DNA of 10,840 nucleotides. Origin: Flavobacterium sp. GTDB lineage: Bacteria > Bacteroidota > Bacteroidia > Flavobacteriales > Flavobacteriaceae. The notes below the pieces were generated by a model. It worked only from the letters and a program-made list of their open reading frames with translations. It had not been told where the DNA came from and did not search any database. The translations under genes and the position numbers were made by a program. Positions within the stretch are counted from its first letter, which is position 1. The number at the start of each line of letters is the position of its first letter. This document shows, piece after piece, positions 2,186-8,507 of the stretch. Where the stretch lies: the NCBI GenBank assembly GCA_003449615.1, contig DMHA01000211.1, positions 1 through 10,840 of the forward strand, read 5' to 3'.

Positions 2186-3280
2186 TTAATTCAAAGCGGG
2201 TTTCATTCCCAATTCTTTTAAATGTTTGAAATGGGCAATTACAGCACTTCTGAAAGTTTTATATTCATAGTAAGGCAATGAACATTCCTTAGCTGTTTCT
2301 TTTACGATTTTGGCAATTTTATTGTAGTGAACGTGACTAATATGCGGGAAAATATGATGTTCGATTTGGTGGTTTAAACCTCCTGTGTACCAGTTGACGA
2401 TTTTGTTTTTTGGCGCAAAATTAACGGTAGTAAACAATTGATGAACCGCCCAGGTGTTTTCCATTTCGCCTTCTTCGTTTGGAACTGGATTTGCAGCTTC
2501 GTCAACTACATGTGCCAATTGAAACACAATACTTAATATTAATCCAGCAGTGTAATGCATCAAGAAAAATCCAACCAATACTTTCCACCAAGTGATTCCA
2601 AGTAGTATTGGCAAAACAATCCAAATGGCTATATAAATAAGTTTGGTAATGATTAAAGTCGTCCAAAGAATTTTAGGGCTTTTAGGTTCGCCATAAGACA
2701 ATTTTCTTTTCAGGTAATTTCTCATTTGCTTGAAATCGGTGGTGATTGCCCAATTGAAAGTCAATAAACCATAAAGAAAAACGGCATAATATTGTTGGAA
2801 TTTATGGAATTTTTGCCATTGCGCTTCTTTGGAGAAACGCATAATTCTTCCTGCTTCCAAATCTTCGTCGTGACCAATAATATTCGTGTAAGTATGGTGT
2901 AAAACGTTGTGTTGTACTTGCCAATTGTGAACATTTCCTGCCAAAACATAAATAGTTCCTCCCATAAAATTATTGACCCAGCTTTTAGTAGAGTACGAAC
3001 CGTGATTGGCGTCGTGCATTACGTTCATTCCGATTCCTGCCATTCCAATTCCCATAACAATGGTCAAAAGCAAATGTGCCCAAAATGGCATTGGTAAAGT
3101 GAGTATCAAAAAATAGGGAACCAGAAAAACAGTAAAAAGGATTACCGTTTTCAAATGGATTTTCCAGTTGCCTGTTTTTGGTATGTTGTTTTCTTTGAAG
3201 TAGCTGTTCACCCGAGAGTTAAGCGTTCTAAAGAATTTTAAATTGTCTTGTTTTGCGAATGTTGGAGCGGCGTTATTCAT
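2186..3280 (-). CDS. membrane fatty-acid desaturase (acyl-lipid/acyl-CoA type)
   Basis: A 364-residue integral membrane di-iron enzyme that should introduce a double bond into the acyl chain of a membrane lipid or acyl-CoA. All three histidine boxes are present: HDANH (89-93), HNVLHH (124-129) and HQIEHH (304-309). Hydrophobic helices lie at about 45-62, 67-88, 208-228 and 233-255, before and between the boxes. Gln in the third box (QIEHH) is typical of front-end Delta-5/Delta-6-like desaturases. No cytochrome b5 domain is fused, so electrons must come from a separate donor. Regiospecificity cannot be read from sequence. The ATG at 3280 follows MITE-like element copy A by 13 bases. A good promoter match lies beyond that element at 3508-3515. 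The aminotransferase follows 45 bp downstream. Confidence 0.93.
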   Translation of the reverse strand: MNNAAPTFAKQDNLKFFRTLNSRVNSYFKENNIPKTGNWKIHLKTVILFTVFLVPYFLILTLPMPFWAHLLLTIVMGIGMAGIGMNVMHDANHGSYSTKSWVNNFMGGTIYVLAGNVHNWQVQHNVLHHTYTNIIGHDEDLEAGRIMRFSKEAQWQKFHKFQQYYAVFLYGLLTFNWAITTDFKQMRNYLKRKLSYGEPKSPKILWTTLIITKLIYIAIWIVLPILLGITWWKVLVGFFLMHYTAGLILSIVFQLAHVVDEAANPVPNEEGEMENTWAVHQLFTTVNFAPKNKIVNWYTGGLNHQIEHHIFPHISHVHYNKIAKIVKETAKECSLPYYEYKTFRSAVIAHFKHLKELGMKPALN

Positions 3281-3285
3281 CTTTT

Positions 3286-3500
3286 ATTTTTAAGGTACTA
3301 TCCTCAACTGTGTGGGTGTTTTTTGCCACGAATTTCACGAATTTACAATAATAAAATTATTCTAAAATTAAATTACACCAATTTTATAACAATTTGTGCA
3401 ATTTTCGAGTTAAACAAATTTCTGTAAATTAGTCTAATTTGTGGCTAACTTTTTTTAATAAGTACAAAACCCACACAATTCGGGTTTGAATAATTTTTAA
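3286..3500. mobile_element. MITE-like element, copy A (199 bp plus 8-bp target duplication)
   Basis: The element body is 3294-3492. Its left 24 bases (3294-3317) and right 24 bases (3469-3492) match as inverted repeats at 16/24 positions, with the inner TGTGTGGGT / ACCCACACA perfect. The identical octamer ATTTTTAA abuts both sides (3286-3293 and 3493-3500), as expected for a target-site duplication. An inner hairpin (AATTACACCAATT with an 11/13 partner around TTATAAC) sits in the middle. A and copy B (8273-8499) align along their whole length. Ends are 22/24 (left) and 20/24 (right) identical between the copies. No transposase is encoded, so movement would need an enzyme supplied in trans. 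Copy A looks older and more decayed than B. Confidence 0.82.
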
Positions 3501-3507
3501 TATGGTG

Positions 3508-3533
3508 CAAAGGTAATTATTAAAAATTTTCAA
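3508..3533 (-). promoter_or_regulatory. predicted promoter of the desaturase-aminotransferase transcript
   Basis: The minus strand reads TACCTTTGCACC from 3515, an exact TAnnTTTG -7 box at 3515-3508. A TTG lies upstream at 3533-3531, but the 15-base spacer is shorter than usual. Transcription would start near 3501, so element copy A would form most of a leader of about 220 nt before the ATG at 3280. Confidence 0.5.
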
Positions 3534-3571
3534 TCTGTAAAATTGAGTTAAATATTCAAAACTAAAAACTG

Positions 3572-3579
3572 TACTTTTG
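3572..3579 (+). promoter_or_regulatory. predicted -7 box of rsmG
   Basis: TACTTTTG is an exact match to TAnnTTTG and ends 15 bases before the rsmG ATG at 3595, giving a leader of only about 10 nt. A TTG exists upstream, but 26 bases away, so the -33 element is weak or absent. Confidence 0.45.
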
Positions 3580-3594
3580 TTAAAATTTTAAAAG

Positions 3595-4224
3595 ATGGAA
3601 GAGATTCTAAAGCATTTCCCGAATTTAACTGAACTTCAGAAAGAGCAATTCGCAAAACTGGATTTTTTGTACCACGATTGGAATGCCAAAATCAATGTCA
3701 TTTCCCGAAAAGATATTGACGAATTATATACCAAACACGTTTTACATTCATTAGGAATTGCCAAAATCATACAATTCGAACCTGGAACTTTTGTCTTGGA
3801 CGTGGGAACTGGCGGAGGATTTCCTGGAATTCCGTTGGCGATTCTTTTCCCAGAAACTCGGTTTTATTTGATTGACGTTATTGCTAAAAAAATAAAAGTG
3901 GTTCAGGCTGTCGCCGAAGCTTTGGGACTCAAAAACGTGAAAGCGGAACAATTGCGTGCCGAATTGGTAAAAGGCGATTTCGATTTTATCGTTAGTCGTG
4001 CCGTGACCAATATGCCTGATTTTGTGTCTTGGATAAAAGACAAAATCAAAAAGAAAAGCAAACACGAACTCAGGAACGGAATTCTTTATCTCAAAGGTGG
4101 CGATTTAACCGAGGAATTGGAGAGTTTCCCAAAAGCAACAGAATACAATTTATCTGATTATTTTAAGGGAGAGTTTTTTGAAACGAAGAAAGTGGTGCAT
4201 TTGCCGTTGAAGTTTACGAGTTAG
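3595..4224 (+). CDS. rsmG: 16S rRNA (guanine527-N7)-methyltransferase RsmG (GidB)
   Basis: A 209-residue cytosolic SAM-dependent methyltransferase that methylates N7 of G527 in 16S rRNA, within the 530 loop of the small subunit. The length is normal for the family. Visible features are: the family N-terminal block WNAKINVISRKDIDELYTKH (29-48); the SAM-binding glycine loop VLDVGTGGGFPGIPLAI (67-83); an acidic residue ending the second strand (Asp94 in YLIDVIAKK); and the SRAV motif (134-137). In other bacteria, loss of this enzyme gives low-level streptomycin resistance. The gene is divergent from the desaturase, with a strong -7 match just before the ATG. Its GC content is clearly higher than that of the following HNH gene: hand counts of three 60-base rows give 35-55%, against 20-30%. 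Confidence 0.95.
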   Translation: MEEILKHFPNLTELQKEQFAKLDFLYHDWNAKINVISRKDIDELYTKHVLHSLGIAKIIQFEPGTFVLDVGTGGGFPGIPLAILFPETRFYLIDVIAKKIKVVQAVAEALGLKNVKAEQLRAELVKGDFDFIVSRAVTNMPDFVSWIKDKIKKKSKHELRNGILYLKGGDLTEELESFPKATEYNLSDYFKGEFFETKKVVHLPLKFTS

Positions 4225-4226
4225 GA

Positions 4227-4256
4227 TTGATAAATATAAAACTCATGTATTTTTTG
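4227..4256 (+). promoter_or_regulatory. candidate promoter of the HNH nuclease gene
   Basis: TTG (4227-4229), an 18-base spacer, then TATTTTTTG (4248-4256), one base longer than the TAnnTTTG consensus. It lies in the 58-bp gap after rsmG and 26 bases before the ATG at 4283, so the nuclease may be transcribed independently. Confidence 0.3.
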
Positions 4257-4282
4257 TTGCTCTTAGTATTAAAAATCCATAT

Positions 4283-5182
4283 ATGCATAATTATAAAGAA
4301 ATAATTAAAACTTGGACAAGTAGAAAACCTGCATTGAAATCAATTGAAGGAGATATTTGTGACATTTTTAAGGTTGCAATTGATAATACAATGTTGCCTG
4401 AAAAAAGTTGGTTTGGTTTTCCAACTTCTAGAAATAGTCTAAATATATTATTTGGAAATGTTTATCTGATTGGAATTTTTGGTGATACAATTGAAATAAT
4501 TGTTGACGCTGATTTAGAAAATGAAACTGGCTTTAAAACAAGAGTTGTGAAAAGTTCTATTTCATCAGGAAATTTGTTGTATTGGATTACAACTGACCTA
4601 AAGGATATAAAAGCATTAACAAATAATGAAATAATTTGGGAACATTATAAAATGGCTTCAATTAAGGTTTTAAATTCAATTACTATTAAAAATGTAAGAA
4701 AAGACTGGACAGTTGGAAAAGTGTTATTAAGTGATTTAGATCAAAATAAAACGGCTAAATTAGATTTAAAAATTTATGAAAATATTTTTGATAGAGAAGT
4801 TAAAATCTCAATGAAAGATAGTCGAACTAATAGGATTAAAAGATTAAGCCTTGCAAATAAAAAACCAATTATTACAAATACTACAGTTAAGACTTTCATA
4901 AGAAATCCAGACGTTGTTGCTGAAGTTTTGTACAGAGCAAATGAAGTTTGTGAATATTGTAACACAAAAGCCCCATTTAAAAAAGATAGTGATGGGAAAG
5001 GTTTTTTAGAAGTTCATCACATAATTCCACTTGCTGAAAAAGGAGAAGATACGGTAAAAAATGCAGTAGGTTTGTGTCCAAATTGTCATAGAAAAGCACA
5101 TTTTGGAAAAAAAGATTTTAACATCGAAATACTAAAGAAAATATGTCAAGCAGAATCTAATTTTGCGCTAACCGAAAAATGA
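4283..5182 (+). CDS. HNH endonuclease with McrA-like C-terminal domain
   Basis: A 299-residue protein with a clear zinc-stabilised HNH nuclease domain at about 207-275. RNPDVVAEVLYRA leads into CEYC (Cys223, Cys226), followed by the EVHHI block (His245, His246), Asn260, and CPNCH (Cys265, Cys268, His269). This arrangement matches the HNH domain common in McrA-like 5-methylcytosine-specific restriction proteins and in many uncharacterised nucleases. The first 200 residues show no motif that I recognise. They look like a mixed alpha/beta domain (strands around 54-78) and may sense DNA or another trigger. All metal and catalytic residues are present, so it is probably active. The gene is much more AT-rich than rsmG, which hints at transfer. 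Function in restriction of modified or foreign DNA is inference. Confidence 0.85.
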   Translation: MHNYKEIIKTWTSRKPALKSIEGDICDIFKVAIDNTMLPEKSWFGFPTSRNSLNILFGNVYLIGIFGDTIEIIVDADLENETGFKTRVVKSSISSGNLLYWITTDLKDIKALTNNEIIWEHYKMASIKVLNSITIKNVRKDWTVGKVLLSDLDQNKTAKLDLKIYENIFDREVKISMKDSRTNRIKRLSLANKKPIITNTTVKTFIRNPDVVAEVLYRANEVCEYCNTKAPFKKDSDGKGFLEVHHIIPLAEKGEDTVKNAVGLCPNCHRKAHFGKKDFNIEILKKICQAESNFALTEK

Positions 5183-5289
5183 TAGCGATTTTAGACGAAA
5201 GATTGCTGGAAGATGGAAGTGATTATATTTCCGTTGAAGAGTCTATTCTTCTGCTAAAATCAAAACCCACAAAAACTCAAACTACTTGA
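5179..5289 (+). CDS. possible 36-aa ORF overlapping the HNH stop
   Basis: The HNH stop TGA overlaps an ATG in the arrangement ATGA (5179-5182), typical of translationally coupled genes. The ORF encodes 36 residues starting MIAILDERLLEDGSDYISVE and ending at 5289. A hydrophobic, helix-like stretch ESILLLKSK follows. It has no recognised family. It could be a tiny coupled partner, or a leftover fragment of an older gene disrupted when the HNH gene arrived. Its base composition appears less AT-rich than that of the HNH gene. Low confidence that it is expressed. Confidence 0.3.
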   Translation: MIAILDERLLEDGSDYISVEESILLLKSKPTKTQTT

Positions 5290-5305
5290 ATTCTTACGGG
5301 TTTTG
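5261..5305. terminator. possible shared terminator hairpin between convergent genes
   Basis: CAAAACCC (5261-5268) and GGGTTTTG (5298-5305) form a perfect 8-bp inverted repeat with a 29-base loop. It lies where the HNH gene (plus) and the toxin gene (minus, stop at 5308) converge. The loop is long and there is no clean T-run, so termination activity is uncertain. Confidence 0.3.
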
Positions 5306-5307
5306 TT

Positions 5308-5580
5308 CTAAAACAAATCGCTATGTGTTCCGGTTCTTACAAGGGTTATTAATTTTATGGTTTCGTTTTGTTCCCAAACAAGTAGCCAGTCAGGCTGAAT
5401 GTGGCATTCCCATAAACCCTTATAATTTCCTTTTAATAAATGTGGTTTGTTTATTGGTGGAAGTTTTCCTTCTAAAACAAGTGAAGTTACAACTGAATCT
5501 AGTAATTGCATATTCAAACCCCTCTTCTTTGCAAGTTTTACATCTTTTTTAAATCTCCCTGTTTGTTCTAAATGATACAT
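5308..5580 (-). CDS. type II toxin, YafQ family (RelE/ParE superfamily) mRNA interferase
   Basis: A 90-residue protein with the full YafQ pattern. It has an N-terminal RFKKDVKLAKKRG helix (about 9-21) and the central block LPPINKPHLLKGNYKGLWECHI. Catalytic-type residues are His47, His60, Asp64 (followed by Trp65), His86 and the terminal Phe90, matching the E. coli YafQ set one for one. YafQ toxins cut mRNA on the translating ribosome and are neutralised by a co-expressed antitoxin. I chose ATG at 5580 as the start. It overlaps the antitoxin stop by one base (TGATG), a coupled arrangement. A TTG at 5583 is possible but less likely. All key residues are intact, so the toxin should be active. 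It is convergent with the HNH gene. Confidence 0.9.
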   Translation of the reverse strand: MYHLEQTGRFKKDVKLAKKRGLNMQLLDSVVTSLVLEGKLPPINKPHLLKGNYKGLWECHIQPDWLLVWEQNETIKLITLVRTGTHSDLF

Positions 5581-5786
5581 CAAGAATAAAATTGTTTTCT
5601 TAATTCTTCTAAATTAGTAGGGTATGTATTTCCGGAACGAGCATCATTGATAGCTTTTTCTGTTTCTGTATTGTAACGCTTTTTACTGGACATATTTTCA
5701 ATTTCTACGAAGGGTAAATTTTTTAAATATTCAATTAACGCCTTTGCTTCTTTCTTGTGTTGGTCAATTTTTAGCACTATTTCCAT
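5580..5786 (-). CDS. cognate antitoxin of the YafQ-type toxin
   Basis: A 68-residue acidic/basic mixed protein directly upstream of, and coupled to, the toxin gene, as antitoxins usually are. The N-terminal half (MEIVLKIDQHKKEAKALIEY) could form a strand and a helix for dimerisation or DNA contact. The C-terminal half YNTETEKAINDARSG (38-52) resembles the AI.(E/D)AR.G segment common to Phd/RelB-like antitoxins, which wraps around the toxin. I cannot place it firmly in one family; RelB/DinJ-like or the DUF2683-type proteins of Bacteroidota are candidates. Role is assigned mainly from its partner, size and order. The ATG at 5786 is the only good start. Confidence 0.8.
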   Translation of the reverse strand: MEIVLKIDQHKKEAKALIEYLKNLPFVEIENMSSKKRYNTETEKAINDARSGNTYPTNLEELRKQFYS

Positions 5787-5800
5787 AAATTGCTATTTAT
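5785..5800. promoter_or_regulatory. possible operator palindrome over the antitoxin start
   Basis: ATAAAT-TGCT-ATTTAT is a 6-bp perfect inverted repeat covering the start codon. Type II antitoxins commonly autoregulate by binding such palindromes. The sequence is low complexity, so chance is a serious alternative. Confidence 0.22.
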
Positions 5801-5832
5801 TATTAAAGTTTCCATATAGGCTTATTTTTAAT

Positions 5833-5866
5833 CAAAATTACAAAATATATATTTTTGTTTATACAA
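5833..5866 (-). promoter_or_regulatory. candidate promoter of the toxin-antitoxin operon
   Basis: On the minus strand TTG (5866-5864) is followed after 23 bases by TAATTTTG (5840-5833), an exact -7 consensus. The start would be near 5826, about 40 nt before the antitoxin ATG at 5786. The spacer is at the long end of the usual range. Confidence 0.38.
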
Positions 5867-5953
5867 CTCTCTTGAAAGAACATATTCATTTTCAAAATCC
5901 AAACTTTTATTTTCGCTTCGTATTAGAAACGAATACAACACCAATTGAGAATT

Positions 5954-7993
5954 TTACTTCCTTTCTTCGATATATTTTAGAATTTCTTTGCTCACATTTT
6001 CGCTAGTGAAACCAAATTTTTGATCCAAAACTCCAGCTGGTGCTGAATATCCAAAATGCTCTAATCCAATCACTTTTCCGCTATCGCCAATCAATCCTTC
6101 GAGGTTTACAGGAAGTCCAGCGGTAAGACCAAAAACTAATTTTCCTTTTGGAATTACACTTTCTTGATAGGCTACAGATTGTTGTTTGAACAATCCTTCC
6201 GAAATAATAGAAGCTACATTCACTTTCAAATTATTTTCATTTTCTAAAAGCACTGCAGCATCCATAAGTGTCGAAACTTCCGAACCATTGGCAAATAAAG
6301 TAATATCAGGTTTTGCAACAGATTTTACCAAATAACCTCCTTTTTTAGCTTCGGTTGCCTCGTCATATCTTGAAGTTCCTGTTGCAGGAATATCTTTGAC
6401 GTTTTGTCTCGAAAGAATTAAAGCGGTTGGCGTAGTCGTATTTTTCAAAGCCATATCCCAAGCTACCGAAGTTTCGATAGCATCGGCAGGGCGAAGCGCC
6501 AATAAACTTTGGTGACCCGAATGGTTTTTGATTTTTTCCATCAAACGCATTTGAGCTTCTTGCTCGATGGGTTGGTGCGTGGGTCCGTCTTCCCCTACTC
6601 TAAATGAATCGTGAGTCAAGACATATTTTACGGGCAATTCTTGAATTGCAGCCAATCGAATCGCGGGTTTCATATAATCTGAAAACACAAAAAATGTTGC
6701 CACAACTGGAATTACTCCTCCGTGAAGAGCGATTCCGTTAGCAATTGCAGTCATCGTTAGTTCAGCAACACCCGCTTGTAAAAAAGCGCCACTGAAATTA
6801 TTTTTTTCTAAAACAGTCGTTTTTTTCAAGAAACCATCCGTTTTATCACTATTGGATAAATCGGCTGAGGAAACAATCATATTCTCCACATTTTCAGCCA
6901 AATAGCCTAACACTATCGAAGAAGCTTCTCTGGTAGCCACATTCGCTTTTTGAACTATTTGACTAAAATCCAAATCAGGAAGTTTGCCTGAAAGGAACAT
7001 TTCCATTTTTTGTGACAAGGCTGGATTTGCTTTTTTCCAAGTGGCTATAGTTGTTTTTTTAATAGCAGCTGAGGCAATTTTGTCGGCTCGAACTTCCGAA
7101 TAATAGGCTTGAACTTCCTCGAAAATATCAAAAGAATTGTCTGGATTGGCCCCAAGATTGATTAAGGTTTTTGTAAAATTGGCTTTAGTATCGCCAATAG
7201 GTTTTCCGTGCAATTCACATTCCCCTTCATACATATCCCCACTTTCAGTAACGCAACCTTTACCCATAATGGTTTTACCAATAATCAGAGTAGGTTTTTC
7301 AGTTTCGGCATTGGCATCATCTAATGCTTTTCGAATTTGTTCGTGGTTGTGACCGTCAATATTGATTACTTTCCAACCCCAAGCTTCATATTTCATAGCC
7401 GTATCTTCAGAAGATACCTCATCGGTCATAGATGAAAGTTGCACATCATTCGAATCGTAGAACATGATAAAATTATTCAATCCTAAATGACCTGCAATTC
7501 GACCAACACCTTGAGAAATTTCTTCTTGAACTCCACCATCGGTTATAAATCCGTAAATTTTGTGTGTAAATAAGCCTTCGAATCTTGCATCCAAAAACTT
7601 AGCTGCAATGGCAGCTCCCACTCCCATAGCGTGTCCTTGTCCTAGAGGTCCTGAGGTATTTTCGATTCCTCTCAAGACATCCACTTCTGGGTGTCCGGGT
7701 GTAACAGAACCCCATTGTCTGAAATTATGTAAATCGTCTTTAGAATAATTCCCCAACAAACTATATTGTGCATACATCAAGGCCGACAAATGCCCAGCAT
7801 CCATAAAGAAACGATCTCTGAAAGCCCAGTCCATTTCGGTGGGATCAAAATTCAAATATTCTGAATAAAGAATGTGCAAGAAATCTGCTCCACCCATTGC
7901 TCCTCCAGGATGACCTGATTTTGCCTTTTCTACCATTGAAATGGCTAAAGCTCTAATGTTATCTGCCGCTAAATTGTCGATTTTTTTGTTCAT
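5954..7993 (-). CDS. tkt: transketolase, full length
   Basis: A 679-residue cytosolic ThDP enzyme moving two-carbon ketol units between sugar phosphates in the non-oxidative pentose phosphate pathway. All three regions are present. The N-terminal ThDP domain has GHPGG (27-31), LGQGHAMGVG (117-126), TDGGVQEE (151-158) and the Mg-binding Asn182 in YDSND, with His262. The pyrimidine domain has the catalytic Glu411 in GVAELTM, THDSFRVGEDGPTHQP (460-475) with His461, Asp469 and His473, and the sugar-phosphate arginines Arg355 and Arg529. The C-terminal domain follows (about 545-679). The cofactor motif usually written GDG reads TDG here, with the metal-binding Asp kept. Some bacteria split this enzyme into two half-genes; here it is one ORF. 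A -7 match lies at 8124-8131. I saw no convincing terminator after the stop. Confidence 0.96.
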   Translation of the reverse strand: MNKKIDNLAADNIRALAISMVEKAKSGHPGGAMGGADFLHILYSEYLNFDPTEMDWAFRDRFFMDAGHLSALMYAQYSLLGNYSKDDLHNFRQWGSVTPGHPEVDVLRGIENTSGPLGQGHAMGVGAAIAAKFLDARFEGLFTHKIYGFITDGGVQEEISQGVGRIAGHLGLNNFIMFYDSNDVQLSSMTDEVSSEDTAMKYEAWGWKVINIDGHNHEQIRKALDDANAETEKPTLIIGKTIMGKGCVTESGDMYEGECELHGKPIGDTKANFTKTLINLGANPDNSFDIFEEVQAYYSEVRADKIASAAIKKTTIATWKKANPALSQKMEMFLSGKLPDLDFSQIVQKANVATREASSIVLGYLAENVENMIVSSADLSNSDKTDGFLKKTTVLEKNNFSGAFLQAGVAELTMTAIANGIALHGGVIPVVATFFVFSDYMKPAIRLAAIQELPVKYVLTHDSFRVGEDGPTHQPIEQEAQMRLMEKIKNHSGHQSLLALRPADAIETSVAWDMALKNTTTPTALILSRQNVKDIPATGTSRYDEATEAKKGGYLVKSVAKPDITLFANGSEVSTLMDAAVLLENENNLKVNVASIISEGLFKQQSVAYQESVIPKGKLVFGLTAGLPVNLEGLIGDSGKVIGLEHFGYSAPAGVLDQKFGFTSENVSKEILKYIEERK

Positions 7994-8123
7994 CTTGTTT
8001 GTATAAAGTGTTGTTTTTAGAGTCTATTTGATGTATTAAAATTTTAAAAAAATGATTTGATTCCAATCTAATTTATTATAAATCAAATCTTTCGGATAGT
8101 ATAAATTCATTTTTCAAACGGTG

Positions 8124-8131
8124 CAAAATTA
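8124..8131 (-). promoter_or_regulatory. predicted -7 box of the transketolase gene
   Basis: The minus strand reads TAATTTTGCACC from 8131. The first eight bases match TAnnTTTG exactly, and the TTTGCACC context is identical to that of the desaturase promoter. No TTG is seen at the -33 position. The start would be near 8117, leaving a leader of about 124 nt. Confidence 0.42.
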
Positions 8132-8248
8132 AGCAAATTACCCGTTATAAAAGTTTAAAAAAGAACAAATTTTGAGTTTATTTTTGTGAAAATAAATATT
8201 TTAGTATAGAAAATTATTCCTTTGGATTTGTTCAAAAAATATCCAGTT

Positions 8249-8268
8249 TTGATTGATGAAACAATCAA
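8249..8268. repeat. small hairpin next to element copy B
   Basis: TTGATTG-ATGAAA-CAATCAA is a perfect 7-bp stem with a 6-base loop, ending 4 bases before copy B. It has no T-run on either side. It may be chance in AT-rich DNA. Nothing else is seen between 8132 and 8248. Confidence 0.3.
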
Positions 8269-8507
8269 TAACGGTTCTACCCTCAACTGTGTGGGTATTT
8301 TTTTAGCCACGAATTACACGAATTAGCACTAATTAAATTATTTTGAAATTTAATCACACGAATTTTATAAGAATTCGTGTGATTTTTGAGTTAAACAAAT
8401 TTGTGTAAATTCGTGTAATTGCTTCGCCAGTTCACTTCGTTCGTGTCGTGGCTAACTTTTTTTAACAATTACAAAACCCACACAATTCGGGGTAGAACCT
8501 CAAAAAC
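8265..8507. mobile_element. MITE-like element, copy B (227 bp plus 8-bp target duplication)
   Basis: The element body is 8273-8499. The 24-bp ends (8273-8296 and 8476-8499) are inverted repeats matching at 21/24 positions and begin GGTTCTACCC. Flanking octamers TCAATAAC (8265-8272) and TCAAAAAC (8500-8507) match at 7/8, consistent with an 8-bp target duplication. Inside are a 20-bp inverted arm (8305-8324 with 8408-8419 plus 8446-8453) and a perfect 13-bp central hairpin (8352-8364 and 8372-8384, loop TTATAAG). The octamer CACGAATT occurs three times forward and twice inverted. The element is non-coding. It lies between the transketolase promoter and the ppiD-like terminator and interrupts neither gene. 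The 28-base length difference from copy A is a 26-base insertion plus 2 bases. Confidence 0.87.
8420..8445. repeat. 26-bp insertion inside element copy B
   Basis: Present in B and absent from A at the aligned site. It starts TGCTTCGCCAGTTCAC and is richer in GC than the rest of the element. Removing it restores a perfect 20-bp inverted arm, so it was gained by B rather than lost from A. The heptamer TTCGTGT occurs on both sides (8410-8416 and 8440-8446). Confidence 0.7.

Follow-up and report, generated by a model that had tools for sequence, protein, structure and literature searches.

Two short elements in a 10,840-nt stretch of a Flavobacterium sp. assembly (hereafter, the window) are very likely non-autonomous MITEs of an ISL3-family insertion sequence that would have been mobilised in trans. 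The evidence comes from their ends, from the octamers that flank them, from an empty site in relatives, and from an element of a related genus that carries both a transposase and nearly the same right end.

Structure of the two elements

Copy A (3294..3492, + strand, 199 bp) and copy B (8273..8499, + strand, 227 bp) align at 76% identity over nearly their full length. The original prediction that the copies align end to end thus very nearly holds, and its coordinates for two copies with shared inverted ends and 8-bp duplications proved exact to the base, octamers included. Copy A has ATTTTTAA on both sides (3286..3293 and 3493..3500; 8/8 matching), and copy B has TCAATAAC on the left (8265..8272) and TCAAAAAC on the right (8500..8507; 7/8), these direct repeats being assigned to neither strand. 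The left terminal repeats occupy 3294..3317 (GGTACTATCCTCAACTGTGTGGGT, +) and 8273..8296 (GGTTCTACCCTCAACTGTGTGGGT, +), and the right ones 3469..3492 (−) and 8476..8499 (GGTTCTACCCCGAATTGTGTGGGT, −). The inverted ends of the two copies are alike, with GG at the start; left and right ends differ from each other, the left carrying CCCTCAACTGTGTGGGT and the right CCCCGAATTGTGTGGGT. Written with spacers, the end pattern is GGTTCTACC(N3)AA(N)TGTGTGGGT. Three of the four ends in the window match the motif GGTTCTACCNNNAANTGTGTGGGT at no more than 3 mismatches, and 200 dinucleotide shuffles of the window gave 0. The right end of copy A is the most worn of the four; it differs from the right-end consensus at 4 of 24 positions and fails the motif at that threshold.

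Between the ends lies a palindrome, the alpha cassette (3325..3445 in copy A and 8306..8452 in copy B, both +, limits set by eye), and one long hairpin is predicted for each copy (z −5.1 for A, −10.0 for B). In a scan of the window, neither copy was overlapped by an ORF of at least 60 aa, in agreement with the earlier statement that the elements have none. No Rfam match was obtained in the window at gathering thresholds, plasmid DNA gave no match to the element, and viral contigs yielded no match to the ends and no confirmed transposase. A short GCTTCGCCAGTTCACTTCGTTCG stretch is present at window positions 8421-8447 and at many related loci, where its position within the palindromes varies, and looks like a smaller repeat nested inside them.

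Empty site of copy A and its surroundings

The desaturase/rsmG intergenic region, which holds copy A, was searched for in 16 related genomes. All 15 same-genus loci recovered have an empty site, with the flanks contiguous around a single octamer position; five of these align over the 110-nt junction without an indel, and the remainder show 1–4 short indels. The sixteenth genome (G044) matched the element interior only. Because all 15 relatives lack the element and have a single octamer position, copy A represents a derived state, an insertion of 199 bp accompanied by an 8-bp duplication. The transposition signature that had been read from the octamers is backed by the orthologous empty sites that had been proposed as a check, and no relative at these loci showed a duplicated octamer without the element. 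Copy B is flanked by a transketolase gene and a gene for a PPIC-type peptidyl-prolyl isomerase, which in each of the three relatives that match best are found on separate contigs, so the empty-site evidence is for copy A.

Copy A is separated by 13 nt from the start codon of the fatty-acid desaturase gene, which starts at 3280 and is read to the left, and its insertion point is probably between this codon and the promoter. The octamer TACCTTTG (3508..3515, −) fits the Bacteroidota −7 box motif TAnnTTTG and may belong to the desaturase promoter. In the alignment, the TAnnTTTG form is kept at 15 of 15 empty-site loci (a script picked up 14 of 15) and the exact octamer at 6 of 15. If the box is used, transcripts would carry copy A as a hairpin leader of 199 nt; judged by this arrangement, the insertion probably adds a hairpin of ∼200 nt to the desaturase 5′ leader.

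Elsewhere in the window, positions 5308-5583 (−) hold a YafQ-type toxin gene (Pfam YafQ_toxin, E 4.5e-31), overlapped and preceded upstream by a 68-aa ORF (5580-5786, −) that has no Pfam match and is placed as an antitoxin gene would be. Downstream of rsmG and near this pair, an ORF of 299 aa (4283-5182, +) whose C-terminal part matches an HNH endonuclease domain is possibly a small mobile or defence gene.

Further copies and target duplications

With copy B as the query, the window's own genome, an assembly of 437 contigs estimated to be 76% complete, gave 69 matches, mostly partial. Further copies, whose absence would have spoken against a mobile element, were found: seven copies in this genome have two ends, namely A, B, and five more on contigs C210, C95, C307, C15, and C177. 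In all seven, the octamers differ at no more than one position, and in five they are identical; C210 was scored with its worn right end placed one base further in, and N runs interrupt the element at C210 and C307. When all 28 scored two-ended copies are considered, the octamers agree at no fewer than 7/8 positions in 18 and at 8/8 in 12, and random pairs of flank octamers reach at least 7/8 at a rate of 0.00116, the chance per copy. This total comprises 23 copies from six genomes (at least 7/8 in 17, 8/8 in 11) and five further copies, some with badly worn ends (at least 7/8 in one, 8/8 in one). Agreement is 6/8 or lower in 10 of the 28.

Among the matches listed, these ends are shared by F. 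succinicans, Flavobacterium sp. LE19-131.1C (G105), F. laiguense, and F. taihuense (G030), and they are also present in G056. A 15-mer contig scan located them outside the window's own genome at L034, L035, L049, L058, L075, L092, L126, L133, and L134; it returned at least 115 stretches, mostly from unrelated bacteria and archaea, which we took as chance matches. Its Flavobacterium rows and four other Bacteroidota rows were read, and at the latter four (L051, L110, L111, and L124) paired ends were absent. Strict end patterns identify 4 of 121 genomes of the genus and 4 of 397 of the family, with the own genome counted in both; these counts are lower bounds, as copies with more wear are present in G046 and G638.

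Relationship to the ISL3 family

The link to a named insertion sequence family comes from a 1,268-bp element found in a different genus of the same bacterial family (L222, G141:C20; locus positions 257-1524). Its left end begins GGTTCTACCACGAATGTTGTGG and its right end, read inwards, GGTTCTACCACGATTTGTGTGGGT, and its 405-aa ORF matches DDE_Tnp_ISL3 (E 1.3e-67) and Zn_ribbon_ISL3. The right end has 2/24 mismatches to the right end of copy B (22/24 identical) and 1/24 to that of the F. taihuense copy (23/24); the left end is less similar to the MITE ends, with 5/24 mismatches to the right-end consensus. No octamer duplication is seen in the flanks of L222 itself. Two contigs of G260 begin within the 3′ end of a related transposase and then run into GGTTCTACCATTAATTGTGTGGGT.

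Relatives of the L222 transposase at E ≤1e-20 are present in 3 of 398 Flavobacterium genomes. One of these, G681, contains sister ISL3 elements with ends GGTTCTACTGG...TTTTGTGTGA and exact 8-bp duplications at five of the six loci read, which directly documents how long the duplications of that ISL3 group are; these ends differ from the MITE ends at 8–9 of 24 positions and have little in common with them beyond GGTTCTAC and GTG. The first ISL3 elements found in Flavobacterium, L176 and L177, were rejected as partners, since their ends differ (GGATCAATCTCAAAAGTTGGGG).

Among the genomes that carry the MITE, G105 has seven fragments bearing the same 3′ end of an ISL3 transposase, all within a few bases of a contig edge (at the starts of C14, C40, C44, C57, and C67 and at the ends of C68 and C27); short-read assembly has probably merged the copies of a multi-copy insertion sequence. 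In the two of seven fragments that were read, the terminus is GGTTCTACTGGGTTTTGTGTGAAT, related to the MITE ends of this genome and not the same, so the G105 ISL3 is a related element and not the exact partner. Searches with PF01610 and with the L222 protein returned no ISL3 transposase from the window's own genome, and no pairs of ends at the spacing of an insertion sequence were found in six distinct carrier genomes. Because of the result in the own genome and the inexact fit of the G105 element, the direct parent is not among the elements found.

The original prediction had named ISL3 among its family guesses and had suggested a search for a full-length insertion sequence with the same ends. 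That search led to L222, in a relative and with a near-identical right end, and the ISL3 guess is borne out by the L222 ends together with the 8-bp duplications of the sister elements, the transposase searches having covered ISL3 and IS256. In keeping with an ISL3-derived MITE, the elements are short, ORF-less, and multi-copy, and they have the 8-bp target duplication. The best-supported mechanism is mobilisation in trans by an ISL3 transposase; because the incomplete own genome yielded no such gene, we infer the enzymatic step. The ∼24-bp ends would be recognized by the transposase acting in trans, which would cut out or copy the element and insert it elsewhere through an 8-bp staggered cut, the repair of which would produce the octamer duplication.

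Ends and interiors

In different Flavobacterium, the same ISL3-type ends enclose three unrelated palindromic interiors (alpha, beta, and gamma). Because these ends carry unrelated palindromes in other species, the element is not defined by its interior, which reads as an imperfect palindrome.

Interiors of the alpha type were examined at 72 loci in seven genomes, both window copies included. ISL3 ends were recognized on both sides at 6 loci (the left end of the seventh own-genome copy falls outside the 130 nt scanned), CAGGG-type ends at 13 (one with 6 mismatches, the most allowed), and ATGACTG-type ends at 3 (two of them weak); a control with reversed motifs gave 0 two-ended loci for any class and 2–3 one-ended loci. 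On contig C398 of the own genome (L009), perfect 20-bp CAGGGCATTCGCTTTTAAAA ends and the 9-bp duplication CAAATTAAC surround an alpha interior that has 51 identical bases in common with copy B, in the right half of the B palindrome. The junction from this shared stretch to the right end is contiguous, and an N run lies in the left half. An alpha element in the single-contig genome G737 (L343) has the same kind of ends and the exact duplication ATGGCAATG, and another in G638 (L296) has CAGGTCAAACGCATTAAAAA ends and a duplication matching at 8/9. Because L009, L343, and L296 carry alpha with ends of the 9-bp type, a single hairpin is combined with two or more kinds of ends, which differ in the length of their duplications.

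The loci with alpha between CAGGGCATTCGC and CAGGTCAAACGC ends are L009 (G000:C398), L343 and L286 (both G737), and L296 (G638); two of their 9-bp duplications are exact and two have one mismatch, and no transposase was found for these ends. Alpha also lies between ATGACTGTCCG-like ends at L293 (G780:C11) and L361 (G638:C73), where the duplications are ∼8–10 bp.

We give about even weight to a broader proposal, in which alpha (CACGAATT...AATTCGTG) is an independent hairpin module exchanged among unrelated MITE families: those with ISL3 ends and 8-bp duplications, those with CAGGGCATTCGC/CAGGTCAAACGC ends and 9-bp duplications, and possibly those with ATGACTGTCCG ends. The ISL3 ends would in turn take up beta and gamma, such that MITEs would be assembled from exchangeable ends and hairpins instead of descending by deletion from one parent insertion sequence, and long hairpins may promote the exchange by template switching in repair or replication. 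Alpha loci without any of the ends tried may be worn copies, copies with other end types, or free-standing repeats, and the many such loci weaken any simple story on direction.

Discussion

Loci of this end-less kind, 11 of 22 in the own genome and 7 of 22 in G737, speak for reading A and B as non-mobile dispersed palindromes, REP-like and resembling transposons only in appearance. This reading is highly improbable in the face of precise 8-bp duplications, a copy A site that is empty with a single octamer position in relatives, and ends common to a transposase-bearing element. An 8-bp duplication does not by its length separate ISL3 from IS1595, IS66, or IS256, and the AATTGTGT stretch resembles IS256 ends, so that another family with this duplication length could be proposed as the mover. 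We consider this very unlikely: in searches covering ISL3 and IS256, the ends match an ISL3 element, and IS256, which was considered for the AATTGTGT stretch, was set aside since an IS256-type Transposase_mut occurs in just one of the six genomes searched, as a contig-edge fragment.

It is possible, and on balance doubtful, that the copies are old, immobile remnants that are now kept as leader or intergenic RNA hairpins, a reading compatible with a transposon origin. The modest identity between A and B, the wear of the A right end and the B octamer, and the strong fold predicted for both copies are consistent with it, whereas the variation of the interiors between species and the perfect octamers of five of the seven own-genome copies argue against it.

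The reading of A and B as ISL3-related MITEs has a published parallel, a 187-bp ISL3-matched MITE with 8-nt direct repeats in Microcystis aeruginosa PCC 7806 (PMC11448079), and as a kind such an element is therefore already known. Like A and B, it is small and forms a stem-loop, and its ends match ISL3; unlike them, it belongs to another phylum and has the ends GGCTCTTCG, and the accessible part of that report describes one element, with no interiors exchanged between end types (PMC11448079). ISL3 insertion sequences have inverted repeats of similar length and 8-bp duplications, as in ISPpu12a (IR 24/21, DR 8), and encode a transposase, whereas A and B encode none (PMC4133298). Within Bacteroidota, MITECca01 of Cardinium is likewise a short MITE with a parental insertion sequence, which is IS982 and thus of another family (PMC9769881). 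The closest likeness in modular structure is that of BrickBuilt and other Porphyromonas gingivalis MITEs, also from Bacteroidota, in which similar terminal repeats are found on unrelated cores; these have IS5-type ends and tandem-repeat cores, and the reverse case, one core under several unrelated ends, is absent from the portion of the description available (PMC4596501). A limited search of open-licence literature, in part-text form, found no bacterial description of that reverse case, and no prior description of the present Flavobacterium MITE was found in such literature, a scope that leaves most subscription journals outside. The unusual part of the present system is the apparent two-way exchange of ends and interiors.

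These results link a class of hairpins that recurs between Flavobacterium genes with a named family of transposons. Here ends and interior have separate histories, so the usual view, in which a MITE arises from a single parent by internal deletion, would not be enough. Copy A, in turn, is a defined site at which an effect of this sort of insertion on a membrane-lipid desaturase gene could be looked for.
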